Shown in pieces: positions 9,808 through 63,754 of a DNA stretch of 64,000 nucleotides. Position 1 is the first letter of the stretch; every line of letters starts with the position of its first letter. The translations under genes and the position numbers were made by a program. The notes beneath the pieces are model-generated. The model made no database searches, was not told where the DNA came from, and saw nothing but the letters and a program-made list of their open reading frames with translations. The stretch is from Mytilus galloprovincialis. Lineage: Eukaryota; Mollusca; Bivalvia; Mytilida; Mytilidae. The stretch spans positions 41,692,321 to 41,756,320 of the forward strand of contig NC_134851.1 of assembly GCF_965363235.1 (NCBI RefSeq), read 5' to 3'.

Positions 9808-9991
9808 ATTATTGTTACATTGGAGACTACTAGTAGTTACCGGAATAAATGGTTGGGTAGGGATCTGAATAATTACGAATGTAACAATATTATTTGGGTC
9901 TACGGCTAACATGTAACATTGCGTTATTGTTACATTAATTCACTTCAATGTACGCTAGATTTATTAAAGTAGTCTCCAATGTAACAATAAT
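9808..9991. mobile_element. MITE with perfect 24-bp terminal inverted repeats
   Basis: Positions 9808-9831 and 9968-9991 are perfect inverted copies of a 24-bp sequence beginning ATTATTGTTACATTGGAGAC. The 184-bp element has no coding capacity. No clear target-site duplication was found, so the superfamily is unknown. It abuts the minisatellite that follows. Confidence 0.75.
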
Positions 9992-10021
9992 TTGTATACG
10001 ACCGCAAAAAATTTTTGGTAC

Positions 10022-10480
10022 ACTACATGATAAAAGAATGAATGGAAGACTACATGACAACAGCATGAATGGAAGACTACATGACAAAAGCATGAATGGA
10101 AGACTACATGACAACAGCATGAATGGTAGACTACATGACAACAGCATGAATGGAAGACTACATGACAACAGCATGAATGGGAGACTACATGACAAAAGCA
10201 TGAATACGAAGACTACATGACAACAGCATGAATGGGAGACTACATGACAAAAACATGAATGGAAGACTTCATGACAACAGCATGAATGGAAGACTACATG
10301 ACAACAGCATGAATGGAAGACTACATGCCAACAGCATGAATGGGAGACTACATGACAAAAGCATGAATGGGAGACTACATGACAAAAGCATGAATTGAAG
10401 ACTACATGACAAAAGCATGAATGGAAGACTACATGACAACAGCATGAATGGAAGACTACACGACAAAAGCATAAATGGAA
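10022..10480 (+). repeat. 27-bp minisatellite, about 17 copies
   Basis: The unit is ACTACATGACAACAGCATGA plus ATGGAAG (27 bp). Copies differ mainly at AACAGC/AAAAGC and GGAAG/GGGAG. Because 27 is divisible by three, both strands stay open for long stretches: a nine-residue repeat HDNSMNGRL on the plus strand, and CSLPFMLLS on the minus strand. These frames are consequences of the unit length and show no start context or splice support. Confidence 0.9.
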
Positions 10481-10799
10481 GGCCAATAAATTAAATTGCT
10501 ATCTAAAAAGCGATATTTGTATTTCGTGATATTATTTCAAATTAATTTATTATAAACAAAACGCCATGCGTCAGATTCCGTTCAGGTGGTACCTTCATTT
10601 ATTACGCCAAAGTTCGAATAGTTGACATTTCAATAACGTTTGTTACGTTGTTCGATTTGATTAGGTTTTACGGACATCCCATTTTTTAGTTCGGAATCTT
10701 TGTTTATTTTCTTTTACTAAATAATGTAAATGCATGTTTGAACATATTCGTGTACGATGTTTTCCTTATGTCATTTATTCACGATTTTCTCTTTTGCAG

Positions 10800-39974: not shown

Positions 39975-40285
39975 TTAGAATAAATCTGATAATGTGTTGT
40001 CAACCATTTTAATATTTTTGCCAATGTTACTGAAGGCACGTGCGATTTCTCGCAAAGTTGGTTTCAGATTGTGCATCCTACAAAACTTGTATCTCCATTC
40101 TTCCAAGATATCCTGGTTCAGTCGAACCAAATCTCTTTCATTTTGTCTGTGGCTGATCTGTTCCCAGGTACTAAAATCCATTCCAAGCTCAATTAGAAAC
40201 GGGAGAGAATTTTTTCCTACCAATGGAGCCAATCTGTCAATGTGTTCTGCTGTAGGTACCAGATCCCACTTCTCAGGTTCCATAT
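39975..40285 (-). CDS. Roco gene visible exon 11: second Death domain and stop
   Basis: The acceptor TTGAACAACACAG leads into DMEPEKWDLVPTAEHIDRLA. The domain follows with FLIELGMDFSTWEQISHRQN, ILEEWR, PTLREIARAFSNIGKNI. This is a typical Death domain: six-helix spacing, the W in helix 2, and the closing LxxAFxxIGxxI. It ends NTLSDLF and TAA. Phase 1 start agrees with exon 10. Death domains mediate homotypic assembly. Confidence 0.9.
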
Positions 40286-43200
40286 CTGTGTTGTTCAAAG
40301 ATAAAAAAAAAACCACCATATGTATTACATGTTAAGAGTTTAAGTAGAATATTTGAAAAATGAAAAACTATTGATGTAAACACAAAGAGAAGCTACTGCT
40401 CTTATTTTTGGAACTGCAATGCGTATAAGTAATTGTAAGGTATGACTGATGTTTCAACTGTATGTTCAAACACAATCTAACCGAGATGCATGTATTTTAA
40501 AAGTCTTATAAATGCAAAGGACACAAATGCATTGCATGTTATTAAGAAGACTTAAAAATTGTAAATTAGATCACCGTTCAAATACCAACCGACATACCAT
40601 GGTCATTTTTTAATCAAATCACTACTGACCAGAGCTAATAATATTGTTTATGTCATAATAGTGTGGAGTCTTAGGATAATCTCATCAATCACACAGCCTG
40701 TCGAATGTAGGTTATGTAAACTCAGACATTAATGCGTGCAAATATTATTGGAAACCAAATGTGATGGAACATCACGTCTGAAAAATCTAAACACATATTT
40801 CCACTTTACTGCTTGCCAAATGTTCAATTTAGTAGAATGTATAATAATTTCCCTTGTAAAACAATTTTTTTCAGAACCAATTTAAAAGCCTTTGTTACAT
40901 CGTTGTACATGTAAAAACTGTGCAATAAAATACATACATTCATACCAGGGATGGGGTCGATTACTTTAAAATGTAATCGATTAAGTTACAGTTACTTTGC
41001 TAATAAAATGTAATCGATTACATTACAATTACGCCCTATTTTATATGTAATCGATTACATTAGATTACTTTTCTTTAATGTAATCATGATTATTTTAGAT
41101 TACTTATGATTACACTGTATATTGCAATTTCAAAGTTTTTTTATAACTTTTTATCCTCACAAAAAGCTAATTTTGGTGATTTTTTTAAAAAGCCTTAATT
41201 TATTCATCTTTAATATTTAAAAGAATTTATAGACAAGTACAGTGTAACATGTGTAATTTGATAACATAGCTATAGACAAGTGTCCTTTCTCTATGTAAAA
41301 GATATAACTTTATTGTTTTCTACAAATGTTAACCAACTGCCTTATTAACAAAAATAATTAAGGAAAAATTCATTAAGTATAGTTTTATTGTCTGTTGGGA
41401 CATAATTAACACATCCATTAATGTTTTTACTGGTGTTTATCACTACTTGAATTATTTTTAACAAACAATAGGTGAGCTTTGGTATTAAAATTTTATTGTC
41501 TTAATATCAATATCAATGAAGTTAAAAGTGGTTGATTGTCATTATTTGTTTGAAAATTTTTAATACTTGATCTAATTGATAATTAATAGAATAATTGTCA
41601 GGTGAAAACACAAAACAGCTTTGTAACTTAGGAGCGTATGTACATTTCTCTTTAAATTAAGAAACAGTTTATTGTAATAAAAGATATTTTGTATCGATGA
41701 AACTTCTGACGTCACCTATTGTTTACTATGCATATTGTTTGTAATAGTTTGCCATATGTATACACTGTACATGTACCTGTTGATACTGATGAACCGTAAG
41801 GATCAAAGTTAATTTCATACATGTAACATAACATTGATTTTTAATATAACGGAAAATATATACCGACAACCAGAATACGTAATAGTGAGAGGTTTAACTA
41901 GCTGTAAAACCTGGTTTAATCCACAATTTTCTACATAAGAAAATGCCTTTGCTAAGTCAGGAATATCCATTCGTTTGATGTGTTGACGCTTTTAATTTTG
42001 CAATTTGATTAGGAGCTTTCTGTTTTGAATCTTCCTCTGGGTTGAGTATTTTTATTATTTTGCGTTTTACTACACTTATAAGAAAATACTGGATTCACAT
42101 TACTTACCAAAATCAATAGGTTGGCCTTTCACAAGCTGGAATAATAAACAAGATACAATTTACACAACTGTCATTATATGATTGAAAACATTTTTAATGT
42201 ACAAAACAGTCAAAGTGTATGTGATATGAGCATAGTTTTTACTAATAAAAAAAACGTAAAATAGTTCTCAGATTAGAGATAAACAGGCTCTCTTTTATTC
42301 ATAATTATAATTACTTTTATTTAGATATAAGAAGATGTGGCATGAGTGCCAATGAGACTATTCTCCTTCCAAGTCACAATTTATATAAGTAAACTATTTT
42401 ATGTGTACACATACATACATTAAATGCTGTTTATTATCAAGATGAGTTTCTATTCATACATTAGTTCTGTCAATTTACCTATCAAATTGCATATGTATCA
42501 AACAAGCGTCATTGGTTTTTTGTTCTATTCTCAGGAATAATGTGTAGACAATTTTAACATACGATTATTGATGTTTCTGCATGTTTTATCTGTAATGTGC
42601 TGCTTTAAGGTAGCACAATACAAAGAGTTTTCATCCCCAATCAGACATCTTTTAACTGATGTACTTCCACTCATCCTTCTTTAAATTGTATAAATGAGGT
42701 ACCAAAAGAAAGAAGAATGATTAGTCTTTCAAATTTGGATAATTTCATTATGACATAATTATTATATAATTAACTGTTATGTAATTTGTTGCTATATTGT
42801 GATGTCCATACTTGAATGAATTAAGCTTCTTTTGTTATTCATAGCATCCCAAAATGTTTTATAGATTTTTGTACAATACAGTTTGACCTCCAAAACCGTG
42901 TCTGCAACATCAGTTTATAAGAGAACACTAAATTAAATTGGGTATAAAATGTGTTCTATTGATGTTTTTGGAAATCTGAGACAGAGTTTTGGAGGTCAAG
43001 CTGTGTTGTACAAGAATTTATAAAATACTTTGAGATGCTATGAAGAACAAAGACGCTAAATTCATTCAAGTATGAAAACACAATATAGCAACTAATTACA
43101 TAACAATTTATATGTAATAATTATGTCATATTAAAATTTTCACAATTTGGTACCTCATTTATAAAATATAAAGAAGGATGAAATGAATTACATCAGTTTA

Positions 43201-46200
43201 AAGTTGTCTGATTGGGAGTGAAAAATCTTTGTATTGAGCTACCTTAAAAAAATCATTATTATCCTTAATGCATTGATGCGGATTATTTATTTTCATCTAA
43301 CAAGTATAAGAGCTTTTCTAATCATAATGTATTTTTTACCTTTGTCTTATTTGAAAGCCTCAATACTTTTTTTTAATATATATAATACACGTTATTACAT
43401 TCGCTTGTGCTATTCTTCAAATGTTGCAGAGATTTCATTGCAATAAATATTTATTTATGTCTTTCCTAGTGTTATGAAAACACATGATGATGAAAACGCT
43501 TTTCCGACAATCTGTGAATGTTTTTCATGTTGTTGGTATTGAATTGGATTTTCCATTGTTTTCATACATGTACGTCATATTTGTTTGTGTACCCTCAATA
43601 TGCGAAATATAGGCGACATTCGTTTTTTTTGTGGATTTGTTTGTCATAGGTTCATATATTTAGTTAATATTGTTATCAAAAATATCATACAAAACAAACT
43701 GCACTGAATAGACAAACAATGTTAATATATATTTGTTGTGACTCATTAAAAAAAAGTACCTTGCAAAGTATGTGGATACTTTCTTTTCCAATTATCTGTA
43801 ATGCGTCTTTGACGTTTTTAAATGTCACCCCCTTGCTATCTCGACATTGTCTTAAAATTTCAAAGCTTGCAGTCTTTATATCTTCAGTTTCCAATATGAT
43901 TTCAACTTCCCTCTTCGACAATTCCAGATGTATTGCCATCTCTTTAGCCTCGAATGGACTGTACAATAAGGACAGGCGACGTAAGTGTAGGTCTGATGGT
44001 GTCGCTCTCAGGAACTCGTCTTTGGTAACTGTATTAGAAACACTGCATATTTATTAAATGCCAACATGATTTTTATTTTCAAAACAATAACCATTGTCAA
44101 TAGATACCTCTCACCAAAATTCCAAAACGATATATCACAAATATATATCGTGGTGTCAACTTAATAGGATTAAGAAACAAAAAAAAAGTTGTTTATGTAC
44201 AACCAACATCAAACAAGGAAAAAAGATGTATACAACATTATTGCAAACTAAAAGTAAAAATACATATACTATCTTTAAAACCAAGCAATAACATACGCAC
44301 CGGAAAATGTTAGCATATTATTAAAATATATTTAAACCAGTGAAAATTCAATCCCTATTAGATCCAAAGAAAGATAAGCAGAGATAGATATGCATGTTTT
44401 TTTTTGTAGGCACTATTTTGGTTACGAGTCATATACTTTTTTTTTTATATTTTAGTCGTTTGCCTTTAGCAATAAAATGTGATATTGACAATTCACTTTT
44501 TAAATCTTCACATCGGTAGGAGAACTTAATAAAATGAAGATATAGGATAAAAATAGCAGTGTTTGGGAGATGAACGAAAATACAGACTAATACTTGAACA
44601 CATTTACCTCATAATTCGACAATGGTGCAATGAAAATTGACCCAACATGTACAAAGAGATTCTTTATATACCTTAATCAGTGAACTTAAGAAAGAAGTCC
44701 TCAAAAAGATGTGACAAGGACATACAACTAAAAATGCCGTGATACGGAATACAATACCTGTGCACCCTGGTTTGCATTTATCTTCATCCTGAGGAAAAAA
44801 GGAAATACAAATGTATTGAAAAGTAATTGTTTTATTTTGTACATCAATTCAGTATATACACACACACGCACACACACACACACATACATATATCTATATA
44901 TATATAGTACAGACACCAATTTTAGGTTTCTCCTCAATTGATGGGATTGAAATATTTATGTAATAGCATATCAAAGTTGAAATTAAGATCCTCTCTTTTC
45001 GAAATTTAATTCGTTCTCAGCGTAAATATAAATCTGAACTTCTCATTTTCAAACTTGTATCTGTTTAAAGGCATGACAGATATCATAAAACCGGAATAGA
45101 ATTTCCAGCATTTCAGCAAAACAAAGGTTTTTAGTTTGATCATCCTAATTATGTTAAGTTAATATTACCTGTTGATTAACTTACAAAAATATAATTGTAT
45201 CTCTGGCACCACTTTTTCACTCGGATTTTAATGGTCAATTTGATATAAATTTAAACGACAAGCATGTTTATCGATGTAACGTTCAAATGTCGAATCGAAC
45301 TATTTATGTGTTTATTTAAGCATTTTTATTGCCTGTTTTATAAGTACCTGTTCTGCAATCCAAGATGAAATTGTGTGCATGTTGCATTTAATGCCATGTG
45401 CATGACATATCCAGACTTCGTCCGTGTTATCTAGATCGCTGTCTTGCAGAAAGCATGGGTTATCTGGTGAGTTACAACATATCCTGGTCATAAAGGATGG
45501 ATCGCTGGTTTGACTCTGATCGCTACTTGTTCTAATATACAGCTGACTTATTTTCTCTAAGGCTGATGCTAGGCATTCATAGATGCTGGATGCTACATCC
45601 CTCATTATAAGTGTGTTTGATCTGGCATGAACAAGACGGACAACAATCCTCTTATCTTCGCAGTCAATGTACATATCTAACGACGGATCAATGGTGAACA
45701 CCCCTGACCTATGGAACAGCATGTCCTTGTTGGTATTACCATATGTTTTCACCGCCCAGACATATAGACAGTAACTAATAAATCTAAAGGATAATGCAGG
45801 AGGTATCATCAAGGAAGACGATTGAAAGGCTATGGCATTACTCCTGGTTGTGAAGCTAGCTGATTGGAGGTATCCAGAATCATCTTTAGCTCGTACCATA
45901 CTTGCAACATAGTAGAAGTCAGCAGGTATACGGTTGTGGTCTGAATCGTATCTTTTTGGTTCTACCAATATATCCAGGTGAGTCATGACATCCAGTAAAT
46001 AATCTTTATCTTTGTAGAATTTCTGATAATTCTTTTTCTTCCAAATCTGTTTGATAATTTGTTTTGAGACCACCCCTTTCTTGCTCATTACATCCCACAA
46101 CTCTTCTCTGACTGTGTCTCCTTGACAGAATCTTCTGTCAGTAACAATAGACTTAAAGGCATCTATTAGATGGGTTGGAGACAAAATAACATGACGGTCT

Positions 46201-47979
46201 AATCTGTGTTCATCAAAGTATAACACCTTGCCTATGGCATGTTGAAATTTCAGGAATACTTTTAACTCAGATTCTGTCAAGGATCTTATAGGCTGTAGTG
46301 AGTTGATTTTCTGCAAATGCTCTATTGTAATCAGTGGAATATTGCGTTTGATGAGCGATGCAAATTCTAGTTGCAAAGGTATAAAGCACTTTGGAAGAGG
46401 TTCGCCCCATGTTGGCTGCATCTTCGATTCTCTGATAATGATATCCTTAAGTTTTGCCATTTCTCGATCATATTTGTCTTTGGCATTTACAAATATTTTA
46501 TCCCTTATTACCAAGTGCTGCATGAATGGCGTTTGCAAAAACATCTGTCTGATCTCTGCAAATAGCTCAGTTCGCCTCTGTTCAATCTCATTCTTAAAAA
46601 AAATCCAAAGAAATATGTTTTCTTCACAAAATTACATGCATATCGTACAAATTAACTCTGCCTAATATGATGTGTATATTGTGAACATTTTCGAATATTT
46701 ATTTGTATCAATCCCATTATACTTATTAAACCACTGTAGTGACGTCAGCCTATTCATTTATCATGGATTTGTTTCCTAGAATCAACGCTTCCTAAATCCG
46801 TCGCTGAAATAGACTCACCAAATTATATTCATTTGTTTTCTTTGTGTCTTATTTTAAATTGGCCAATTTTCTGATTTCTGTTCACTAATGGAATTATTTT
46901 AAAAACTTACCTTTAATTTTTGTAATTGCTGTATACCTTCACTGGGAATGGATCCCGTTCATGAATTGTGTTACGTGTTACTAACATCACCACATCGACG
47001 AAACCTCTCGGCTACCAATAGGTTACGATTTAATTGGTCTAATTTATACATATAAATGAATATATGATATACATCGGTACAACTGACACACTGGGATTGT
47101 ACCTTAATATATACAATAATAGGCAATTTTATAGTATGAGTCGGTAGCCGCGAGGTTTCATGGTTAAGCTCGATGAGTAAGAATTGTCGGTATAGGTTCG
47201 AATCCTTCTATTCTTTTTATTGTCCCTATTCTCTAATTTTTACTGTTTGGTTTCTTGTTTTGTAAGTTATTGTGGATATTTTGTTTGATAAAAGTAACTA
47301 ATTAAATAGTTAAAACAATACAAATAAAACACAACACGTCTGCCCTTAAAGATCATCATATATCAGGCATCTGAATATTATCTATTTTGACAAAATGAGA
47401 CATACTCAATCTTATTCTTAAGAATATATCACTTAACATACTGTTGAATGTTTTTGGTGAAGGCAAAATGGGAATGCAAGTAAAACTAATAAGATAAACA
47501 GAGAGCAAATAAGAAATATTACACATACCTAACGATTCAGATATCAATGTTATTTTGTTAATATCACTATTGCAAACCACTCATGGAATGATGTTGTCTT
47601 ACCGCAGCTTTATTGCGCTACTTGAATCAACAAATCACAAAGATTTTGGACAAATCGACTACAAATGTTGGGGAAGCAAAGCTAATGAAATATATAGGTT
47701 ATTAAAAAAGGGATAACAGATCAATCTTAGGTCTTTTCTTTACAAAGGCAGTCTTACCTTAGTTTTAGTTCAATTATATATGAAACTAATACAAAAGCGT
47801 ATCATCCAAGTAGCAAATTAGATATACACTTCGAAAGCAAATAGCACAAAAAAAATAGTCCAAAGGTAGTGGCAATATTAAAAATTATCAAAAGTAAAAA
47901 AATCATTCATCTTTAATTAGCCATCTTTACAAAATGTCTTTGATGTAAGTTTTATATTCCAAATGAGTTGATTTGAGAG

Positions 47980-48025
<46 letters not shown>

Positions 48026-51000
48026 GTGAACAGTCGTGTATGTGATATCGTCATAGAAGTATCATACAAATTCGAAACTGTCAATTGTTTTAAATACTTA
48101 CATGTTTTAACTTATCCTTGTGTGTCAGAACAACCATAATTTTAGGATAACCTTCAATACTCCCTTTACAGTATGTTACAATTGTGTTGATCCAGAATAG
48201 CAGATAATCTTCAAAAGAAATAAGTATGTGTTTGTATACAATCATTATGATAATCTACATTCTAATCGATAGACAGCTTCAATAAGTAGTTATCATATAA
48301 CCATGTTTCAAAAGTAATACAAAAACTTTAATTTCTTCAATGGATAATAAATATTAAAACGACATTTAATACTTTGGCTTTTTTTTCACAAAACATACTA
48401 ATTTAGTCATTGTTGCGGCAGCGTGATTTTTGTACTTGGATATCAGTTGCCTTAAACTGTCCGTCAGTAACTGCGAGTACTCTCAGACCTGTACTTTTGG
48501 TTGTTGGAATATACATGTACTCGGCAACGTCTTATATGTGTTTTTCAGTGATTGTCGTTTGCTGATGTGTTACATATTGATTTTTCGTTCAATTTTTTCT
48601 ACATAAATTAGGCTGTTAGATTTCTCGTTTGAATTGTTTTACATTTATCATTTCGAGGCCTTTTATAGCTGACTATGTGGTATGGGCTTTGCTCATTGTT
48701 GAAGGCCGTACATTGACCTATAATTGTTAGTTTCTATGACATTTGGTCTCTTGTGGATAGTTGTCTTATTGGCAATCATACCACATCTGCTTTTTTTATA
48801 TTTAGTACCGATAGCTGCATTCTTGTTGGTAGTTCTGTCAGTACTAGTATACAGTTGATATTTTTTTTAGCAGGTTGAAATCACATTTTGGAAATACGTA
48901 TTCTTATTTCTGTTATGAACATATTTTGCACAACTCTGTTGTAATAGCATTGCACTTGCCGTTTTATACGTTAACTACCTTTTGCTGTTTTTTGTCCACT
49001 CTTTCCTGGGAGATACTGTTCATTTGGACAGGGGTCATCTAGTTGTCTACTTCCATCCAACACAAGTATGTAAATCGCTCTGTAGGTTAAAAATGTCTGA
49101 TGAGTTGAATAGAAAACATCCTGCCCTCCAAAATCCCAGATGATTATGGGTGCTATGTTTTTATTGCAAAGCAGCTTTTTCCCAACCTTAACAGACTTCT
49201 CAAAGAATTTCTCTTTAGTGATCGACACTTTCACCTCTTGAACTTTTTTGGCAACACCAAAAAAGCGTTTTAGCTTTCTGATTAATCCAGGTTTAGTTAC
49301 AGTTTCTACATTTAAATCACTGGTCAAATCTACCTCCGAATGAAAATCACGTGAGACATTCTTCGTGGTATCTTTATCAGATTGAACTTCATGGGTGTGT
49401 TTGTGATCCAAAAAATCATTATGTGCCTGGCTTACAGGAAGGTTATGATTATTCTGTTCATTGCCACTGATTGTGTAATCTGATAATGTGTTATCTTCGA
49501 TTGAACTTCTTGACGGTTTAGATGAACTGGTAGGACTACCATCGTGCACACCTGCTTCACTACTGCCATCTCTGTTTTCTTTAATCTCTTTGCGTTCAGA
49601 AAGTCGTTTGCGTACATTTTCGGTCAAATAACCAGCGTCGACATTTTCGTTTAGAAGTGGATGACTTGACCTGAATGTATCCTGAACACTTTCTGTTCTG
49701 TTTCTGTCCTCAAAGTCCGAACATTTAGCCGTTGAAACGGATAAAGGTGAATCTTGTGTTTCATGCGAATTAGCTGTTTTTTCATGCAATGGCATGTCTT
49801 CTGTATCTAAGGTTTTCGGACTGGTTTCCGTTTTATCGTGTACACTAACTTTTTCTTTTTTCAGTGTTTCGTCTTGTAAAAGAGATCTGGTAACGGTTAA
49901 TTCCTCCATCGTAAAATCTGAATACAGAAACAAATGCCAATACACAAAAGTATACAAATAATGTTGGTCAAAGATGAAATCATTCCTTTGTTTTATAGGG
50001 ATACAAAACAATTGTGTCATAAAAACCAAGTTATCAACGACTTTTAAATTTTTTTTGGTTAGTAATTTCTCTTCAAAATGATCTGGAGATTTCTAAAACA
50101 GACAATTTCCAATATCAATTCGACATACTTCACGTATCAACCCCCATTTTTGGGTTCGTGTTGCTTAGTCTTTATTTTCTTATGTTGTATTTGTGTGTTA
50201 TTGTTTGTCTGTTTGTCTTTTTCTTTTGAGCCATGGTATTGTCAGTTTATTTTCGATTGTCGAATTGAAAACCCCTCTGGTATCTCTTTCATTTAACGAT
50301 GTTCTCCTCTGAGGAACCAACATTTCTATAATTTCTTTTTCTTAAACTGATATTTGGGCTTAAAAGACTGTACAATATAATTGGTGAAAAAAGAAAAAAT
50401 ATATTGAGGTGCACTTCTTATTTTGCCACAGTCATTTTAAAGTACAAAATTTTGATGATTTTCCCTTTTTTCATCAATTTTTTCCCATTTTCGGGCTATT
50501 ATCATGAAAAAATTCACAGTTTCCCAATTAATTTTTTTTTCATACTGTGAATTAGGATGAAGTGGACAAATCTGAATACATTTTACTTAAAAAAAACTAT
50601 AGGTTAGTGTAACTATTAGAAATTTTTATCAAAATTGTTGCTTTTTCGTTTCAAATTTACCATGTTGTCAATTTCGTAAATTTATCGGATTTGTATAATT
50701 TTTTTTAAATTTATAAATGAGTAAATTTGAAAGATAAATCATTCAGGTTACTAGTTTTAATCATGAAGATATTTGAAATTAATATATAAGATATTTTCAA
50801 ATAAAAAATCAATGTAACGTTTCTTTTTTTGACTAGTATATATATATAAAACTATCATACACTAGTATACACATTTTCTTTACAACTATGAAATCCTTTT
50901 GTTTTTATTTAGTTTCATTGTTTCAGTCTTTACCGTTAAGAGCTGACACCAATTTATATTTGCTGCATCTTGTTTATTATTGATTGATAAACGACGAAGA

Positions 51001-54000
51001 GTTTATCTTATTTTTGTTTTCTTCTGAAAAGCTATTGTGATGTAAGCGATCAATGAGTCTTGATTCGTAGTAATAAACATAGTTAAGATAAATAAATTAA
51101 TTAATTTGACAAAAACGGTTAACTGTAATGATAAATGAATAAATAATAAACTTACATGTGTATTGTTAATAGTTTTAAAAGATTTTCTCAAATTATTTAA
51201 TTGTTTCTTGTTCCTTTTACAAATATGAAACAAAGCACGTTAATAATTTTAGAACATTTCTATGGTTAAGACACACAATGAGCATTTCAAGATCTGATGT
51301 TTTCGTAATGTTAGAAAATAATAACAATAATAAACAAAAAATACATGAAACATAACACTGTTTTCATTTTCGATTTTTTTCTTTGTGGTATATATTCATT
51401 TTTTACCTTGATGTCCATCAAGCCAGCAGTTTTTTTTTATATCCATGAAGGAGAGACCATTATATAACTCTATTCCATCAGTTGACATTCTGAATTTCGT
51501 TGGTTGTTTACCGACAAGATGTCTGGCGATAGTCGTTTTTCCAGTACCCTGTTCGCCAGCCAGCATAACTCTTGACTCAAAATGTCGATAGCGTTCTCCT
51601 TCTAATAGACTAGAGAACACTTTCGCTGATTTATTATCAAATTTCTTCACTTCAGCTGGAAGTCCTATATTTGTTTTTGAAATAGATGTTAGAAATTCGA
51701 GAAATAAACAGCCGTAATAATACAATATATCTTTTATGTTTTAAAAGTAGAATATAGATACTCAAAATACAGAACCAGCAATTCATGCGTTATTGAATAT
51801 ATAAAAAATAACATTTTACCAAACAGAATATATCATGGATATATTAACAAAAGGTGTCGCATAGTAACACAAAGGAATTGGTTTATGGCGTATGATACGA
51901 ATTTTATATTAATTGGCACCATACCTCATCTTCCTATATCTATTTGTGATTTATTTTGGAGAACGATTTTTTTAATTTGATAAGGGGACTATTGGAATAA
52001 AAGGCTGAAAATCAAAGGTTTTGATAGAATATATATCAGAGAAAGATCGAAATTCAAAATTAACTTATGTTTCTTTACAGGTATTTCATAATCCATATTT
52101 TGTTATTACAATTACGCAAGTCAACAGTTTCATAGTATTTCTGAAGACCTTATTTTACTATCGATATTATGTGTGTCATTCTAATATACAATCCATTGTC
52201 GATAAACCGGCAATAAATCGTTGTTTTTCGGAATTTTGTGGGACTTAGGTTCTACTGTTCAATGTGATGTCCCCCGTCCACGTTTACTTTGTGTGTGTGT
52301 TAGACGTATAGCTATGTGTATCCATCTAATCAGTTAAGCCCTTTTCGTTTGATTTTTATAATTTGATTTGTTGTACTGTTACACCACTGTGCCAGGATAG
52401 GGGATGGTTTGCGCCTTCAAACGAGTTTAACACCGCCACATCATGTATGTGCCTGTCCTAACTCAGGAGCCTAAAATACAGTGATGAAAAAAATTGAACG
52501 AAAAACAAATATGTAAACAAACGACAACCACTGAATTATAGGCTCCTGACTTGGGATATGCACATGCATGTTCTCGTTTCCTCTCAGTGGAGTCTGTACA
52601 TTATTTGTTTTTATTTTTAATAAGTTCCAATACTAAAACCATTGTAAATAAATGTTTGTTTAATAAACAATATATAATAAAAGTGTATGCAAGCTGCTAA
52701 AATGTATATATTTTATTAGAATAACGATGAAAAAACGAGAATATAAACAGTAAATTTGTGCGAATGATGTGCACTTGGCATTATATGATGTGCAAATAGC
52801 ATTATGTGATGTACAAACTGCGCAAACATACTATATGATGTGCTTATATACTGATATGATGTACAAATATTCTTAGATGATGTGCAAACATTCCTTTATG
52901 ATGAGCAAATATCTTTATATGATGTGCAAGTATCCTTTTATGATGTGCAAATATACTGACTTGATGTACAAATATACGTATACGGTGTGCAAATATCCTT
53001 ATATGATTTGGTTGTATTATTATATTATGTGATTGTAATCTTATATCGTGTGGGTCGGCTACCTTCAATATATGATGTCGAAACGTCATTATTTGATTTG
53101 TTTAATCGCTGTTTTGGTCAATAAACATGCTTTCGATTAGAATGATTACTGTCTATGTAAAAAGTGATTCTGACCTGCCTATTCGCAATGACTATAATTC
53201 TAGTTCAAATCTGTAGATATCGCTAGTATTTAACAAAAAGTGAAACGGTGCAATGCAATAAAAATAAACGTTTCAAACGTTTCGGATGAATTGATGAATT
53301 TCCCAGGGTATGCTAAAATTTCATATATTTTGGGGCTCTTTATAGCTTGCTGTTCGGTTTAGCAAATGCTCCGTGTTTAAGGCCGTACGTTGACATATTC
53401 CTGTTTACGTTTTACACATTGGACCTGGATGTAGAGTTGTCTCATTGGCATTTATACTACATCTTCTTATTTCTTTTCATTGCAAAAAACAGCAATGAAC
53501 ACACAGTCAGTGTAAAAAATGTTGCATAACGAAAGCTACATAAGTATCTACTTTTGCGTTATTAAACTGGTATAAATGATTGATTGATCGATTGATTGGT
53601 GTTGAATACCACTTATGCTATATCGTGGCGGTGCTTTTATTTCGTCGGAGGAAGCCGAAGTGTCCGGAGAGAACCACCGACTCTTGGTAGGAAAAATAAT
53701 AATTCTATTCATTTAAGATTGGAGTCGAGCTTACCTATAAGTTAAGTTTTGACAGGCTAGTGATACAGTAGTGCATGTATTTATTGTTTACTGAGGCCTG
53801 TTGGTCATTACAGGTAGAAAATAAATTGTGTTTACAAATTTTCTAAGTGAACATTTACGGCGTAAGTTTTATTATTTTGCTTTTATCTGGAAAAGTATAA
53901 TCGATTTAATATAAACAAATAGTGACATGTGTCTTAATATCTTTTAGACTTAAGGTCTCTTTTGAGTTTTTTTGTTTTATTGCCTATTATCGTGATTACT

Positions 54001-57000: not shown

Positions 57001-60000
57001 TTAGACAAACTAGCTATGAATGTTTCAAGGTGCAACATTAAACAAAGAAAGTACTGGAGCTATACCAGTAATACATAGTTTACGTTCCTTAAAATAAATT
57101 AAAAAAAACGTCACAACAGTTCCGGGAATAGCAAACTAGTTGTTAAACATAAAAACACCGTTAGATTGTGGCAAATAAAGGAACATCACCATCCAAAAAG
57201 AGAAATTAACAATAAAGAACGAAAATTCGTCCCTTTTGTCGTCAATTCTATTGTGGAGTTTCCCGTGTAAAACCGAATTTAGGAAAGGACAGTTATTATC
57301 CTGTAAATTTGATTTATTTAAAGTAAGTTCCTAGGGGGTAAAGCCGGCAGTATATTTAGCAAATTCAGGATTAATTGAACGAACATATATCATCAAGATA
57401 ACGGCAAGTGTTGTTGTATTTATGAATTAAATGCAATGTATGCAGGTCTTTACTGAGTTTGGTCATTAACTATGATTCATAACAGTGCACACACAAGTCT
57501 GCTATTAACGGGGCGCAATAAGTTCCCATCGGAATACATATAACCTGTCAATAAAGTTTGTTGCCTAAACTTACGTAAATATTATCAAGGAGAAATTTAA
57601 CAACTTCAATCATCTCATCACACCTCCAGTTAGTATATCTAGTATATTTAACGTTCTCATTATGGAAGAAGACTTTAAATGAATTGCAGCAAATATATTT
57701 GCATTCAGATTTACCAAACGACAATTTAATCATTATATTTTTGTTTGACAAGATTGTGTTGAAGTGTAGTTTAAGAGTAGAACAGTCAAAACTATCCACA
57801 GAATCAAAAGGACCATCAAAACTATCCACATAATCAAAAGGACCATCAAAACTATCCACAGAATCAAAAGGACCATCAAAACTATCCACAGAATCAAAAG
57901 GACCATCAAAACCTTGTAATTTATCTTAGACATCCAAAGAATTTTTACACACCCCAAAAAGTTAATTCCACTGTATTATATTACAATAGCTTAGGATGAG
58001 TTCTTTGGTAGTAGTTAATACAGCAGGAATACACATTAGAGTTATTAAATGTACTCGATAAGTTGAGAAAATTTATATCTATGTTAATCACATATTTTTT
58101 ACGAAATTTTCCTTTGATCTTACTGACTGATAATTTTCTTACTTACCGGAGTCGAGTGATATGAAATATAAGTAACACATGGGCACGTGGCGTTGCTTAT
58201 GAAACTTAAATTGACAACGTCTTCATAGGTAAAATAGCGATAAACAGATTATCATTGATTATCTCAACTCGATAGATTTTTTCCTTTTAAATTACGGGCT
58301 CGTTAGAATTTTAACCGATAATCTATAAACAAATTATTTAATTCTCAGAACGCCAGTTATTGATCTTGTGGTGGCTAGAACTTTATCATGATTTGGTTGA
58401 CCGTTCAATGGCATGCGTGGCTTAGATGCACATTGACTTTTTTGACTTTTTTGTCGATTGTCACATAATCTGATCTAGTTTATTACCATTTTCGTTCTTG
58501 AAATACATAGTATACTTTCCCCTAGTGTAAAAGGAACTACGCACCATATGCGATTTCTGAATCTTAACACTCTTTATGTTGGCTTTGTTTTTGCGAGAAT
58601 TACGAACAGTTGCTGGTTTTTTGTCAATGTGTACTGAGTATAGTGTTGCTAGATTTAATATCATCTAAGTTCGTATAGACCTAATTGCATCTTCATCGTG
58701 TTTTAGAAGAAAAAAAATACTCAAAGGCTTGAAAAGTCTGTATATAAATGTATAATGGTAATCTCAATAGAGCAGTTTATTGTAAATGAAAAATAATAAA
58801 ATTTATGAACGTAATGCATGATATCAAACTTGTTTCTTTATAAACTAAGTCTCAATTACAAAGATTTATTTCTTAGTTTAAATATGCAGTTTCTCAAAAC
58901 AAGTAGAGTCGATTATTATTCGAAAAGAGTAAGTTCACAAAAATACTGAACTCAGAGGAAAATTGTATTAGAAAGTCCCTAATTACATGGCAAAATCAAA
59001 TGATAAAACACAGCAAAAACCAATGAACAAGAATTGTCATATACCTGACTTGGTACAGGCATTTTTAAATGTAGAAAATGGGGGTTAAACCTGGGTTTAT
59101 ATCACTTTGTATGACAGTCTCATCAAATTCCGTTATATTTACAATGATGCGTGAACTAAACAGACATAAAAAATAAAATAGTCAAAATATGGGTACAGCA
59201 GTCATCATCGTGTTACAATTTTAAAAGGAAATACATTGCTTCGCGTATCTCACGTCATAAAATTTTATACGTCACATATTTGTTTCGTTCAATGTTTATA
59301 CAAATATTTTTTTAAATTTCACATGGACAATGATAGCCTACAAGGTTAAAGAACCAAAAGTATAGAAGAATTTATTTCAGAAATAGACCGAAGAAACTAC
59401 TCACCAGGTACAAGTGTCTTTTCATAATCCTGCAAAGAGCATTAACACTAACATGTACGATTTTATTTTACAACTGTGTAAAGAAGGTATACAATAGAGG
59501 ATGCAAAAACAGTACACATTTTTGATTAAGAAAACGCAGTATTAAATGCTATTTTGATTCAGTAACATATCGACAATTAATCTCTCTTCAGTGTTGTTAG
59601 GGATCGAAACATTATTTGGAAGGCCTTTTATTTACCTCAATGTAGGTTAGACTCTTGAATTTTAAAGTTACGAAATAGGATGGACGGTTCATATAAACCC
59701 GTAGTAAAATATAATTCAACCCAAACGAAAAAATATAAACAAGTATAAATTAAAAACAAAGTTTAAACCTATGATTGCGTTGGATAAAAATCGCAAGTTT
59801 AATACGTGTGCATATTAAACACATTTCTTGGTAGAGGGGTCTAAATACAGCACAAACAATATTTTCCAAAAGACCGAAAAGTGAAAAGTATATAATATAC
59901 ATGTAGGACTCTAAAGTGCGATGGTCCCGCTGAAGTGCGATGGTCTACGCTAAAGTACGATGGTATATCACACTAAAGTGCAATGCGACAATGGGGTAAT

Positions 60001-63000: not shown

Positions 63001-63754
63001 TAAATATTTCAAAATGAGAATTTTTGCAATAATAAAAACCGCGCATTAATTTATGAATTTACAGTATACAAAAGTACTCTTCATATTCTTTTAAACCAAC
63101 TTTAAAGGCTAAATTAGTACTCAGCTGTCTAAAACTAAATAAATCAACAGGGGACAAAATGCGAAACCACACTTTTAACTGTGTATTGCTACCTAAATTA
63201 TGGTCATTTTTTTTTTTATTCAATAGCACCTGACCAAGATTGAAATAATCCCCACATTATTTTTAAAATGTTATTCGCAGAAACGTTGGATTAAATTCAA
63301 ATCGATCAATCCCCGATAAATTTTCGAACGAGCCAGAAGACTTACTGTAAATTCATTATTATTGGTTGCATACCAATGATCGTGGATTTCGTGTCATTAG
63401 GTAAAACACGAATTCAAATGTTCAGCGAATTATCAATATTCTTTAGGATTTGTATTTACAGATTTGAAAAAGCACGTAATCAAATATCCACGAAAATGCA
63501 AGTTTATCCTCATTCCACGAAAATTGATACCCACAAAAAGAAATGAATCTACAGTAATACAAAGGTTTCACTTAAAATGCGTATGGCGTTAACATAGATT
63601 TGACCTTTGTTATAATCTCAAATCAGTTACAATAGTATATTCTCCTGATACTTACTTTAGCATTTTGTATGTTTAGATCACAATTATTGTTTAGCAAATA
63701 TGTGACCATCTGCGGATCTTTGTTTGCAGCTACATGAAGCACAGTGTTTCCAAC
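39975..63754 (-). CDS. Ankyrin-Roc-COR-Death-Death protein gene, 3' eleven exons (N-terminus outside window)
   Basis: Eleven minus-strand exons join in phase: 63754-63656, 60666-60613, 59429-59405, 51664-51407, 49917-48979, 48208-48102, 46592-45348, 44788-44758, 44028-43760, 42135-42108, 40285-39975. All have AG/GT borders. Together they give 1,121 residues and a stop. Order: ankyrin repeat (1-50), Roc GTPase with P-loop GEQGTGKTT (96-104), STDGI (120-124), DFGGQ (407-411) and THKD (487-490), COR (about 495-800), and two death-fold domains (about 930-1005 and 1030-1110). Roco proteins are GTP-regulated scaffolds. The ankyrin-Roc-COR-Death order resembles DAPK1 without a kinase being visible; a kinase, if any, would lie beyond 64,000. 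The Roc domain has a low-complexity insert of about 250 residues. A role in immune or cell-death signalling is inferred from the domains. Confidence 0.85.
40948..41130 (+). mobile_element. hAT-like terminal fragment
   Basis: Starts CAGGGATGGGGTCGATTACT and is packed with TGTAATCGATTACAT words in both orientations, similar in layout to the start of the remnant at 32505. Confidence 0.55.
41880..42080 (+). repeat. Mussel repeat F2
   Basis: GTGAGAGGTTTAACTAGCTG, then GCCTTTGCTAAGTCAGGAAT, ending TTTTATTATTTTGCGTTTTAC. Confidence 0.6.
42108..42135 (-). CDS. Roco gene visible exon 10: 28-nt micro-exon
   Basis: Acceptor TTTATTATTCCAG, donor GTAAGTAATG. It encodes LVKGQPIDF and links the two death-fold domains. 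The phases (0 in, 1 out) fit both neighbours exactly, which is the main reason to accept so small an exon. Confidence 0.7.
42320..42366 (-). repeat. Mussel repeat F1 terminal fragment
   Basis: AAGAAGATGTGGCATGAGTG and CCAATGAGACTATTCTCC correspond to the complement of the F1 3' end. Confidence 0.5.
42609..43243. mobile_element. Foldback element, two arms of about 300 bp, TTAA flanks
   Basis: Left arm text GGTAGCACAATACAAAGAG, CAATCAGACA, TAAATGAGGTACCAAA, CATACTTGAATGAATT and GTTTGACCTCCAAAAC recurs inverted in the right arm in the same order, ending GAGCTACC. Arms are roughly 85-90% alike with a short centre near 42,930. TTAA flanks both sides (42605-42608 and 43244-43247), as expected for piggyBac-type insertion, although the terminal bases GGTAGC are not the usual piggyBac CCC. 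It lies wholly inside a Roco intron. No coding capacity. Confidence 0.75.
43250..43759 (-). other. Roco intron 9, right part
   Basis: AT-rich intron sequence with nothing else recognised. Confidence 0.5.
43760..44028 (-). CDS. Roco gene visible exon 9: first death-fold domain
   Basis: Acceptor TTTCTAATACAG, donor GTACTTTT. It reads VTKDEFLRATPSDLHLRRLS, LLYSPFEAKEMAIHLELSKR and EVEIILETEDI, then FEILRQCRDS and TFKNVKDALQIIGKE. The helical pattern and closing ALxxIGxxxI match the death-fold superfamily. The helix-2 tryptophan of classic Death domains is replaced (SPFEAKEMAIHL), so a DED or divergent Death domain remains possible. Confidence 0.8.
44100..44757 (-). other. Roco intron 8
   Basis: AT-rich; only T-runs near 44,400 and 44,440 stand out. 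Confidence 0.5.
44758..44788 (-). CDS. Roco gene visible exon 8: 31-nt micro-exon
   Basis: Acceptor TTTCCTTTTTTCCTCAG, donor GTATTG. It encodes DEDKCKPGCT plus one base, in phase 0 and out phase 1. It links the COR exon with the first death-fold exon. Confidence 0.7.
44853..44908 (+). repeat. CA/TA microsatellite in a Roco intron
   Basis: A (CA)n stretch from about 44860 to 44885, followed by (TA)n from about 44888 to 44908. Confidence 0.8.
44940..45347 (-). other. Roco intron 7, left part
   Basis: AT-rich intron sequence; nothing else recognised. Confidence 0.5.
45348..46592 (-). CDS. Roco gene visible exon 7: COR domain
   Basis: A 1,245-nt exon with phase 0 at both ends: acceptor GGATTTTTTTTAAG, donor GTACTT after SSWIAEQ. 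It starts NEIEQRRTELFAEIRQMFLQ. COR features follow: PLQLEFASLIKRNIPLITIE, ALGxV-like FQHAIGKVLYFDEHRLDRHV, ILSPTHLIDAFKSIVTDRRF, GVVSKQIIKQIWKK, and LLDVMTHLDILVEPKR. This is the COR dimerisation domain that always follows Roc. The C-terminal third (from about HNRIPADFYYVASMVRA to CLASALEKISQLY) is a less conserved extension ending in a cysteine-containing segment. Confidence 0.9.
46999..47225 (+). repeat. Possible tRNA-derived SINE fragment with inverted ends
   Basis: GAAACCTCTCGGCTACC (about 47003-47019) is inverted as GGTAGCCGCGAGGTTTC (about 47143-47159) with one mismatch. A B-box-like GGTTCGAATCC sits near 47190-47204 and an A-box-like TGGTTAAGCTCGATG near 47160-47175. This suggests tRNA ancestry; no full cloverleaf was established. 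Confidence 0.4.
47984..48023 (+). repeat. (GA)n microsatellite
   Basis: About 20 uninterrupted GA dinucleotides. Confidence 0.9.
48102..48208 (-). CDS. Roco gene visible exon 6: end of Roc domain with G4 motif
   Basis: Acceptor CTTATTTCTTTTGAAG, donor GTAAGTATTT. It encodes DYLLFWINTIVTYCKGSIEG, then YPKIMVVLTHKDKLKH. THKD is the guanine-specificity motif. Phase 1 in and 0 out match exons 5 and 7. This segment is too short to appear as a long open frame. Confidence 0.9.
48220..48978 (-). other. Roco intron 5 with an F1 repeat
   Basis: Holds an F1 copy at 48530-48795 (GCTGACTATGTGGTATGGGC). Otherwise AT-rich. Confidence 0.55.
48979..49917 (-). CDS. Roco gene visible exon 5: long insert and Roc G3 region
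   Basis: Acceptor TTGTTTCTGTATTCAG, donor GTAGTT. Phase 1 at both ends. The first 245 or so residues are polar and acidic, rich in S, T, E, D and K (starting DFTMEELTVTRSLL), and have no recognisable fold. A basic stretch (LIRKLKRFFGVAKKV) ends this insert. Then come IAPIIIWDFGGQDVFYSTHQ and IYILVLDGSRQ, ending QYLPGKSGQKTAK. DFGGQ is the G3 motif. The insert separates switch I from G3, a place where Roc domains normally have some 30-50 residues. An ATG-started reading from 50029 runs into intron sequence, so the acceptor at 49917 was preferred. Confidence 0.85.
49930..51406 (-). other. Roco intron 4
   Basis: AT-rich. Positions 50140-50300 hold a Penelope-like 3' tail fragment. A TA run lies at 50,840. 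No other feature. Confidence 0.5.
50140..50300 (+). mobile_element. Penelope-like retroelement 3' tail fragment
   Basis: GGGTTCGTGTTGCTTAGTCT through TTGTCAGTTTATTTTCGAT and CCCCTCTGGTATCTCTTTC match the tail of 19308-20300. Extreme 5' truncation. Confidence 0.6.
51407..51664 (-). CDS. Roco gene visible exon 4: Roc P-loop
   Basis: Acceptor ACAAATATAG, donor GTAAAAAATG. It reads GLPAEVKKFDNKSAKVFSSL, then MLAGEQGTGKTTIARHLVGK and MSTDGIELYNGLSF, ending WLDGHQ. GEQGTGKT is the P-loop and STDGI matches the switch I segment common in Roc domains. Phase 1 at both ends fits exons 3 and 5. The frame stays open upstream of the acceptor only into intron. Confidence 0.9.
51730..52325 (-). other. Roco intron 3, first part: no feature
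   Basis: AT-rich intron sequence; the plus-strand open frame at 52021-52248 shows no family pattern. Confidence 0.45.
52327..52600 (+). repeat. Mussel repeat F1, head-to-head composite
   Basis: The plus F1 start (GCCAGGATAGGGGATGG, CCGCCACATCATGTATG, AGGAGCCTAAAATACAGTG) is followed at 52490-52570 by an inverted F1 piece (CCACTGAATTATAGGCTCCT). Confidence 0.6.
52750..53100 (+). repeat. 21-bp VNTR element, plus orientation
   Basis: Units of about 21 bp, ATATGATGTGCAAATATCCTT, repeated some 12 times with divergence. They are followed by a unique tail (GTTGTATTATTATATTATGTG, TTCAATATATGATGTCGAAA). The same array plus tail occurs inverted at 54955-55350. Confidence 0.75.
53330..53475 (+). repeat. 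Mussel repeat F1, diverged 3' part
   Basis: CTTTATAGCTTGCTGTTCGG through AGAGTTGTCTCATTGGCATT and TACATCTTCTT. Confidence 0.5.
53578..53745 (+). repeat. Short mollusc repeat (SINE-like)
   Basis: GATTGATTGGTGTTGAATAC, then ATATCGTGGCGGTGCTTTTA, GAGAACCACCGACTCTTGGT and AAGATTGGAGTCGAGC. I recognise it as a common mollusc interspersed repeat; its class is unsure. Confidence 0.5.
53750..54535. other. No gene seen
   Basis: AT-rich intron sequence. The open frame 54267-54491 begins with a plausible ATG but shows no family pattern. Confidence 0.35.
54540..54850 (-). repeat. E2 fragment, inverted
   Basis: GGGCAAGTATGGACACACCA and CTGACACAGCATAGGCTTCT are the complement of E2 near 29540-29625. Confidence 0.55.
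54955..55350 (-). repeat. 21-bp VNTR element, inverted partner
   Basis: The tail (TTTCGACATCATATATTGAA, AGATTACAAGCACATAATAT) and some 13 units of GCACATCATATAAGGATATTT mirror 52750-53100. The minus-strand frames (54860-55419) reading LYDMQQS or YMICNNP are translations of the 7-codon unit and not genes. Confidence 0.75.
55440..56505. other. No gene accepted
   Basis: The minus-strand frame 55623-55928 has fairly balanced composition (GGLSADKYVKPNRIWYVRYA) but no recognisable domain. A splice-like GGTCCAG|GTGAG lies at about 55,820. It is left as unassigned intron sequence of the Roco gene. Confidence 0.35.
56510..56885 (+). repeat. Mussel repeat F2, longer copy
   Basis: Includes the upstream F2 part (TTTTTGACAGGTTTACTTAT, TTTGATGCGACTGTC) and the core GCAAGGTCAGGAATATGACA through TTTTTGTGATTTTAC. 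The hydrophobic open frame at 56510-56806 lies within this repeat and is not called a gene. Confidence 0.6.
56890..57435. other. No gene seen
   Basis: AT-rich intron sequence of the Roco gene. Confidence 0.4.
57440..57775 (-). mobile_element. Penelope-like retroelement, RT fragment
   Basis: The minus strand reads CKYICCNSFKVFFHNENVKY and RCDEMIEVVKFLLDNIYVSL, then QVICIPMGTYCAPLIADLCV. The last part matches the GxxMGTxxAPxxADL motif B of Penelope-type reverse transcriptases and precedes, in the family, the segment found at 19308-19790. The copy is broken and truncated. Confidence 0.65.
57784..57913 (+). repeat. 30-bp minisatellite, four and a third copies
   Basis: Unit ACTATCCACAGAATCAAAAG plus GACCATCAAA, nearly perfect. 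On the minus strand it reads as a ten-residue repeat (SFDGPFDSVD) running in frame into the RT fragment, which is a coincidence of the 30-bp unit. Confidence 0.85.
57920..58920. other. No gene seen
   Basis: AT-rich intron sequence of the Roco gene. A donor-like CCG|GTAAGT occurs on the minus strand near 58,147, but no convincing acceptor was found for an exon there. Confidence 0.4.
58925..59115 (-). repeat. Mussel repeat F2, inverted
   Basis: GTCATATACCTGACTTGGTACAG is the complement of the F2 core, and CACAAAAATACTGAACTC of its 3' part. Confidence 0.65.
59405..59429 (-). CDS. Roco gene visible exon 3: 25-nt micro-exon
   Basis: Acceptor AATGCTCTTTGCAG, donor GTGAGTAG. It encodes DYEKTLVP plus one base; phase 0 in and 1 out connect the ankyrin end (IVKLIK) to the Roc start (G-LPAEVKKF). 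Acceptance rests on the double phase match and on both strong splice sites. Confidence 0.65.
59430..60612 (-). other. Roco intron 2 with a short tandem motif
   Basis: Contains the AAGTGCGATGGT cluster at 59911-59985. Otherwise AT-rich. Confidence 0.45.
59911..59985 (+). repeat. AAGTGCGATGGT short tandem cluster
   Basis: TAAAGTGCGATGGTC or close variants occur four times at spacings of about 20 bp. Confidence 0.6.
60613..60666 (-). CDS. Roco gene visible exon 2: end of ankyrin repeat
   Basis: Acceptor TTGTTTGATTTAG, donor GTAAATTC. The 54-nt exon, phase 0 at both ends, encodes WKRPVEYAESDAIVKLIK. Joined to exon 1 it continues DLNIQNAK-WKRPVEYAESD, which is the helix pair of an ankyrin repeat (N-x-QN-x4-PVEYA). 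Confidence 0.75.
60667..61065 (-). other. Roco intron 1, left part
   Basis: AT-rich with no recognised features. Confidence 0.45.
61070..61345 (-). mobile_element. Penelope-like retroelement 3' tail, inverted
   Basis: AACACGAACCCAACCAACAA, GCTCCACAAATGGCACCCGT and CGGTAGGACACATTCGTGAA are complements of the tail at 19800-20300. The 5' end is truncated. Confidence 0.65.
61350..61975. other. No gene seen
   Basis: AT-rich Roco intron sequence without recognised families. Confidence 0.4.
61979..62411 (+). repeat. Direct duplication in Roco intron 1, copy 1
   Basis: Shares TATCAAGAAATCAA, AACAGAAAATAGC-like CGCACAGTCAAACAGAAA and AAAATGCGAAACCACACT, then CTGTGTATTGCTACCT, with copy 2 at 62686-63196. 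It carries an extra (ATT)n-containing block at about 62255-62365. Confidence 0.75.
62686..63196 (+). repeat. Direct duplication in Roco intron 1, copy 2, split by a MITE
   Basis: Same order of landmarks as copy 1, interrupted at 62893-63064 by a MITE. Confidence 0.75.
62893..63064. mobile_element. MITE, CTGTAAATTC ends, TA target
   Basis: Left CTGTAAATTCAAAAATTATT, right end inverted ATGAATTTACAG. TA at 62891-62892 and 63065-63066. Copy 1 of the surrounding duplication supplies an uninterrupted site near 62192. The element is 172 bp and non-coding. Confidence 0.8.
63345..63554. mobile_element. Palindromic MITE, CTGTAAATTCATT ends, TA target
   Basis: Left CTGTAAATTCATTATTATTG, right end AAATGAATCTACAG. 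TA at 63343-63344 and 63555-63556. The inner part pairs CCAATGATCGTGGATTTCGTG with the inverted CACGAAAATTGATACC region. 210 bp, non-coding. Similar in layout to 25878-26036. Confidence 0.8.
63656..63754 (-). CDS. Roco gene visible exon 1: ankyrin repeat
   Basis: A 99-nt, phase 0-0 exon between acceptor ACCACTTTTTAAG and donor GTAAGTATC. It encodes VGNTVLHVAANKDPQMVTYL, then LNNNCDLNIQNAK. This is one 33-residue ankyrin unit (GNTxLHxAA...VxxLLxxxxDxNxQN). Single-repeat 99-nt exons are typical of ankyrin genes, so more such exons should lie to the right of the window. Confidence 0.85.

Follow-up and report, generated by a model that had tools for sequence, protein, structure and literature searches.

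We found that the minus strand of the examined window carries a chain of exons that joins an ankyrin repeat, a Roc GTPase, a COR domain and two C-terminal helical domains, here termed D1 and D2. The window is the whole 64,000-nucleotide stretch of Mytilus galloprovincialis DNA that was analysed (C14:41692321-41756320, within a 1.385-Gb assembly of 331 contigs), and it is predicted to hold the 3' half of a gene with at least 27 coding exons and a span of more than 93 kb. The reading that we prefer, and to which we assign a probability of roughly 60%, is a kinase-less Ank-Roc-COR-Death-Death gene encoding a cytosolic receptor or scaffold and belonging to a large Roco expansion.

Exon chain of the window

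Between positions 63754 and 39975, ten coding exons were identified, with nine joins whose introns are all GT-AG and whose phases chain throughout (Table 1). The joined exons translate into 1,103 residues with one stop codon, at the very end. The preliminary description of this DNA had placed both ends exactly, the ankyrin exon starting at 63754 and the TAA closing at 39975, and its statement that the joins agree in phase held at every one of the nine. Its count of eleven exons and ten junctions is revised to ten and nine in the window. It had also listed four exons as too short to be seen as open frames, and this was true of three (25, 31 and 28 nt).

Pfam placed Roc (1.9e-12), COR-A (3.4e-12) and Ank (6.5e-6) above cut-off on the joined protein, and gave no match to Death, kinase, caspase or TIR domains in it. 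The domain hits anticipated in the preliminary description were thereby recovered for Ank, Roc and COR-A; no Pfam profile matched either terminal domain, an outcome that it had named as refuting. With no such match, the death-fold assignment of D1 and D2 rests on structure and on bridging homology. The proposed architecture of Ank-Roc-COR followed by two death-fold domains was upheld by Pfam for the first three, by predicted structure for D1 and D2, and by homology bridging for D2. The exon chain itself is confirmed as lying far beyond chance, because its micro-exons are kept in paralogs and the order of COR, D1 and D2 recurs at all 42 loci of the subfamily described below.

Table 1. Coding exons of the predicted Roco gene within the window, in order of translation.
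Feature	Position in window	Strand	Evidence
Last ankyrin-repeat exon, 99 nt, phase 0-0, begins VGNTVLHVAANKDPQM	63656..63754	-	Pfam Ank, splice sites
m25 micro-exon, 25 nt, DYEKTLVP+1 nt, phase 0 to 1, joins ankyrin and Roc	59405..59429	-	
Roc exon 1, 258 nt, P-loop GEQGTGKTT, switch I-like STDGI	51407..51664	-	Pfam Roc, genomic copies
Roc exon 2, 939 nt, long polar insert, basic stretch TKPGLIRKLKRFFG, then WDFGGQ (G3)	48979..49917	-	
Roc exon 3, 107 nt, G4 motif THKD, phase 1 to 0	48102..48208	-	
COR exon, 1245 nt, G5-like VNAKD near start	45348..46592	-	Pfam COR-A
m31 micro-exon, 31 nt, DEDKCKPGCT+1 nt, phase 0 to 1, between COR and D1	44758..44788	-	
D1, first predicted death-fold domain, 269 nt	43760..44028	-	AlphaFold2, Foldseek
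m28 micro-exon, 28 nt, LVKGQPIDF+1 nt, joins D1 and D2	42108..42135	-	
D2, second predicted death-fold domain and TAA stop, 311 nt	39975..40285	-	AlphaFold2, Foldseek, Pfam Death bridging

Micro-exons and splice sites

Omission of m25, m31, m28 or the G4 exon broke the frame and led to an early stop, and direct splicing from the ankyrin exon to the P-loop exon or from D1 to D2 was ruled out because the phases clash. A scan for splice-site pairs across the gap between the ankyrin and P-loop exons gave five possible single exons, among which m25 scored best. Together with its flanks, m25 matched 12 other places in the genome at 77-90% identity. At all 12 a P-loop exon was found 1.1-6.7 kb downstream on the same strand, and at none of them within 10 kb on the wrong side. 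The open frame holding m31 gave 11 paralog matches.

It was noted that m28 aligned at each of the 14 paralogous D1 loci searched, and that an acceptor AG and a donor GT stood at matching places in the 13 paralog alignments for which sequence was compared. Two of the alignments were weak when taken alone (E 0.47), and the 14 loci cannot be counted as independent, since several of them are almost identical duplicates. The ankyrin exon is bounded by the splice sites ttttaag/GTT and AAA/gtaagt. The acceptor of the P-loop exon (aaacaaatatag) is weak; 37 of the 39 close copies of this exon (itself included among the 39) align query residues 1 to 84 or 85.

A further frame at 41815-42094 (41.8-42.0 kb) was considered as death-domain-like and was dropped, as the phrase it contains turns up again within introns and at places other than D1 and D2. 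This coding-like short phrase, IPDLAKAFSYVENCG, is repeated at 41815-42094 and 56732-56818 and has relatives near several paralogs. It is probably a dispersed repeat and not an exon.

The Roc-COR core

The Roc region retains intact G1 (GEQGTGKT), G3 (WDFGGQ) and G4 (THKD) motifs together with G2-like (STDGI) and G5-like (VNAKD) segments. As in the Roco family, COR follows Roc directly, with both above the Pfam cut-off. Taken alone, Roc exon 1 scored below it (8e-4), and rose above it once the exons were joined; the open frames around Roc exon 2 and the COR exon gave Pfam Roc at 6e-8 and COR-A at 7.6e-13, respectively. The G4 exon is about 81% identical over 44-47 amino acids in two paralogs (L019 and L032).

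A polar insert of about 257 residues separates the G2 and G3 segments of Roc. A 201-residue part of this linker is 20% hydrophobic and, judging by this composition, likely disordered. The end of the insert in Roc exon 2 (TKPGLIRKLKRFFG...) is basic and conserved in paralogs; membrane or calmodulin contact at this stretch would be a guess.

Paralog family and selection

The gene was found to be one of 42 related copies and no lone oddity. The COR exon matched 98 places in the mussel's own genome, and 42 of these (itself included) form a subfamily of 44-100% identity in which 40 copies lack an internal stop and two contain one. D1 matched 56 places; D2 matched at least 131 (best 150 of 192 candidates scored) and the P-loop exon at least 129 (best 150 of 327 candidates scored). 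All 42 subfamily COR copies are followed downstream within 40 kb on the same strand by D1 and then D2, and 39 of them also have a P-loop exon upstream among the matches listed. Nineteen members are located on the + strand of C14 at 6.9-9.6 Mb, and the remaining loci are on C3, C5, C7, C8, C12 and elsewhere on C14.

This arrangement bears on the possibility that D1 and D2 make up a separate neighbouring gene and that the Roco gene stops after COR. D1 and D2 do occupy exons of their own, and the chain was predicted from genomic DNA. However, the donor of the COR exon is in phase with the next exon, and the order and strand of COR, D1 and D2 do not vary across the 42 subfamily loci, which are spread over six chromosomes; a separate gene is accordingly extremely unlikely.

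Genome-wide, PF16095 (COR-A) gave at least 150 matches over the curated cut-off, two of them partial (best 150 of 276 candidates scored). Only 17 of these best 150 belong to the 42-member subfamily, and therefore the true number of COR domains must be higher. Many of the COR-A matches listed are on C12, C11, C7, C13, C5 and C14.

Selection was examined by Nei-Gojobori dN/dS. The median was 0.198 for COR (29 of 30 sequences; 402 of 406 pairs usable), 0.339 for D1 (17 sequences; 132 of 136 pairs usable) and 0.089 for D2 (12 sequences; only 38 of 66 pairs usable). These results show that COR, D1 and D2 are under purifying selection, with D2 under the strongest. Decay of a duplicate, or an artefact of assembly, would be in keeping with the duplicated family, with the weakness of some ankyrin exons and with the two of 42 COR copies that carry a stop, but every exon of the window is open and spliced in phase, and dN/dS between the window gene and its nearest paralog is 0.22 for COR and 0.09 for D2. 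We regard decay or artefact as very unlikely.

A second, larger set of D2-like exons, 28-41% identical to D2, was observed mainly on C7, C11 and C12. Among the matches listed, and with the second piece of one split match left out, there are 81 such distant D2 relatives. For at least 27 of the 81, a P-loop relative lies upstream at a distance of 60 kb or less, compared with 2 for which one lies downstream, among the matches listed; a D1 relative lies upstream at 30 kb or less for 8 of them, and downstream for 0. This suggests another Roco-Death branch. The idea that all distant D2 relatives lie beside COR-A failed, with 1 of 81 upstream and 1 of 81 in the reversed control, among the matches listed.

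Nature of the two C-terminal domains

We assessed D1 and D2 by sequence and by predicted structure. None of 14 D1 and 12 D2 sequences, nor the joined protein, matched the Pfam Death model (PF00531), and nothing usable came from Pfam, NCBIfam or PDB sequence-profile searches. AlphaFold2, run on the paralog alignments, gave compact helical bundles with pLDDT of 90.2 for D1 and 94.6 for D2. DSSP assigned seven helices to each model; the core of the death fold has six. As predicted models, both form the antiparallel helical bundle of that fold.

In Foldseek searches against the PDB, death-domain entries alone occupied ranks 1-19 for D1 (best E 0.10, TM by query 0.52-0.71) and ranks 1-26 for D2. 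The top D2 match was the RAIDD death domain (0.79/0.87, TM by query 0.79, 1.7 A, E 5.2e-3), and no E-value for D1 or D2 reached 0.001. The death domains of RAIDD, FADD, RIPK1, TNFR1 and DR3 share the predicted fold of D1 and D2 at 10-25% identity. Unlike those domains, D1 and D2 are not recognized by sequence models.

A bridge by sequence was obtained for D2. When PF00531 was scanned against the genome (best 150 of 217 candidates scored), at least 104 matches were found, all over the cut-off, and at least 29 of the 81 distant D2 relatives coincide with such matches. Of the 56 COR copies that are more distant, at least 25 are followed on the same strand, after about 3-12 kb, by an exon that matches Pfam Death; none of the 56 is preceded by one among the matches listed. 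None of the 12 subfamily COR copies examined (of 42) has a Pfam Death match downstream among those listed, which is what would be expected of D1 and D2 domains too diverged for the Pfam model. Roc-COR followed by Death is thus common in the Roco genes of this genome, and the best reading of D2 is that of a Death domain that has diverged. For D1, which is without the sequence bridge available for D2, prediction supports a death domain by fold.

The two domains could instead be helical bundles that only look like death folds, neither homologous to them nor alike in working, as the lack of any Pfam or PDB sequence match and the weak Foldseek E-values would allow. We consider such a resemblance improbable, given that death-domain entries fill every one of the top 19 and 26 structural matches and that the overlap of distant relatives with Pfam Death ties D2, though not D1, to true members of the family. 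It was also considered whether D1 and D2 arose by recent internal duplication, and this was unsupported; hhalign between them gave a probability of 1% (E 0.051), at most a weak link.

The upstream ankyrin array

Of 17 predicted ankyrin exons, the window was found to contain just one, the last. The search was extended 89 kb past the window, for 153 kb in all, and 16 further predicted ankyrin exons were located upstream at 65.6-121.1 kb (window numbering), each encoding one repeat. A cap-like exon at 133404-133318 precedes the whole array. The 16 exons and the cap-like exon all have lengths that are multiples of three, phase 0-0 and AG/GT borders; the ankyrin exons are 93-108 bp long, in phase 0. 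The upstream ankyrin exons were chosen by score and splice pattern with a finder profile built from a hand-made five-line consensus, and those at 80501, 78662, 72814 and 65732 are weak-scoring and less certain.

On the open frame around the window ankyrin exon, Pfam Ank (PF00023) scored 1.3e-7, and the same model matched the one upstream ankyrin exon that was submitted with it. Exons resembling the window exon are found at C14:780501 (70% identical) and C14:11635508 (60% identical). The cap-like exon was not recognized by Pfam and had weak matches only elsewhere in the genome (best other E 0.007).

Four of the ankyrin exons (at 99.6, 101.7, 103.8 and 105.8 kb) belong to units of about 2.1 kb that are arranged head to tail and are 92% identical over 5.6 kb, the product of a recent tandem duplication in which each exon was copied together with its intron. 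When one tandem ankyrin exon was searched against the genome, 26 matches were obtained, 9 of them in the window gene. A P-loop exon of the subfamily is located within 90 kb downstream on the same strand for 24 of the 26, compared with 3 on the other side. The remaining two matches are an exon at C14:588509 and, on C12, an open frame of 1,310 aa. At C14:578529 on the + strand there is a cap-like match, though a weak one (E 0.08); about 200 kb separates it and the ankyrin exon at C14:588509 (+) from the closest P-loop exon, and the two are perhaps a remnant or an unlisted copy.

Among the 17 ankyrin exons of the window gene, the median dN/dS was 0.575 (125 of 136 pairs usable). Positive selection on these exons was considered and found unsupported, as exon identity among the four tandem copies is 93.5-100%, at least that of the flanking introns. 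The recent copies differ mostly by amino-acid changes (5 vs 1, 6 vs 0 and 9 vs 1 silent), numbers that are too small and therefore indistinguishable from neutral drift.

Extension to the right had been proposed as a way to reach the N-terminus and a possible kinase. It yielded the additional ankyrin exons; a start-codon exon was not found in the window or the 89 kb upstream, and the kinase catalytic-loop motif was absent from six frames of the 153 kb (one motif pattern, weaker than a profile).

The kinase result bears on a relationship to DAPK1, in which an upstream kinase would have been missed. DAPK1 carries ankyrin repeats. Its group is described as the third Roco group, in which a kinase stands ahead of Roc-COR and a death domain is C-terminal (PMC6337361), and the mussel gene resembles this account in its Roc-COR core and predicted C-terminal death domain. 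However, the motif scan of 153 kb returned no N-terminal kinase, an ankyrin-cap-like exon precedes the whole array, and the end domains number two instead of one; the long Roc insert and the dozens of copies also differ from DAPK1 as described. We judge a DAPK1 relative with a missed kinase to be highly improbable. The features of the LRRK group were likewise not recovered, as Pfam, run on the 1,103-aa model, matched neither LRR nor a C-terminal kinase.

Neighbouring and intronic elements

An exon-like open frame on the + strand at 12095-12556 matched Pfam C1q (6.9e-7) and is probably a C1q-domain gene next door. Translated simple tandem repeats were noted by eye at 52844-53124, 54860-55422, 57733-57975 and 9935-10498, in introns or intergenic DNA. 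Within introns of the host gene, at 84-90 and 127-129 kb (extended numbering), there are + strand open frames (L010, L011, L015 and L016) that we take by eye to include retroelement-like genes (reverse transcriptase-like and recombinase-like) and, presumably, a Maverick- or adenovirus-like ATPase and protease frame.

Comparison with known Roco systems

The preliminary description had named DAPK1 as the known animal Roco protein with a Death domain. This was too narrow, since in Trichoplax adhaerens at least 17 Roco genes are reported with CARD and death domains among their partners (PMC4104024), and an anemone protein combines kinase, Roc/COR, Death and TIR (PMC5094078). The Trichoplax set is similar to the mussel family in placing Roc-COR beside death-fold domains and in being an animal expansion. 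However, its reported partners comprise CARD, death, TPR, LRR, AAA and others, its genes are fewer, and the account available for it makes no mention of an ankyrin array with tandem death ends (PMC4104024).

Among molluscs, Roco-TIR and Roco-MyD88-like genes are described in Aplysia (PMC9334734). These also join a mollusc Roco to death-fold or TIR signalling domains, but are TIR-based and few, with no ankyrin array in the available description (PMC9334734). Other death-related adaptor domains are reported as expanded in bivalves (PMC8195603).

A counterpart in gene structure was noted in brown algae, where 9-47 ROCO genes per species are reported, with a separate 72-bp exon for every LRR and with shuffling and alternative splicing of these exons (PMC11378527). 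As described, the brown-algal LRR-ROCO genes share with the mussel an expanded family, in-phase exons of one repeat each and intragenic exon duplication. They differ in that the algal exons are 72 bp, phase 2 and part of LRR-ROC-COR proteins, whereas the mussel ankyrin exons are 93-108 bp, phase 0 and paired with predicted death-fold ends; the algal genes are also reported to show alternative splicing and positive selection (PMC11378527).

Vertebrates have four Roco proteins (PMC6337361), and the at least 150 COR-A matches in the mussel genome exceed the Roco counts given in the papers cited here. A search of titles and opening abstracts in the open literature, with most subscription journals outside it, found among the papers listed no report of an ankyrin-Roc-COR-Death-Death family or of a bivalve Roco expansion. 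The architecture is a new variant within the Roco family, whose function we infer.

Possible function and significance

An immune or death role for this Ank-Roc-COR-Death-Death branch is plausible. The ankyrin array would bind a ligand or partner, and Roc-COR, as the GTP-dependent switch of known Roco proteins, would then change state. The paired death domains would in turn be exposed or brought together and seed a death-domain assembly, which may recruit an adaptor or caspase. The family would thereby act in an NLR-like manner, Roc-COR taking the part of NACHT and ankyrin that of LRR. In its full form, this proposal describes NLR-like innate receptors built on Roc-COR, with per-exon ankyrin arrays that grow by tandem duplication, a fixed death output and an m28 splice switch that could drop D2; we hold it tentatively, at somewhat less than even odds.

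The main rival to this activating role is a dampening, decoy-like one, in which the tandem death domains would hold a death-signalling adaptor without recruiting an effector, and the Roc-COR switch would dampen signalling. The gene shows no kinase motif and its model no kinase, caspase or TIR match, and D2 is the most constrained part measured, which fits one fixed binding partner. Adaptor-type death domains are also without an enzyme, however, so the missing effector does not discriminate between the two, and we consider the decoy role unlikely.

On the preferred reading of a kinase-less receptor or scaffold, the roughly forty related copies suggest a large family of internal sensors through which cell death or immunity may be controlled. 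Members of the mussel subfamily of 42 link a GTPase switch directly with two predicted death domains, and so provide a natural system for studying how Roc-COR signals to a death-fold output without a kinase. The family could also tell whether arrays of one repeat per exon diversify the internal sensors of animals, as they appear to do in brown algae. If true, the NLR-like reading would make these mussel genes an animal parallel, of independent origin, to the exon arrays of LRR-ROCO genes in brown algae.
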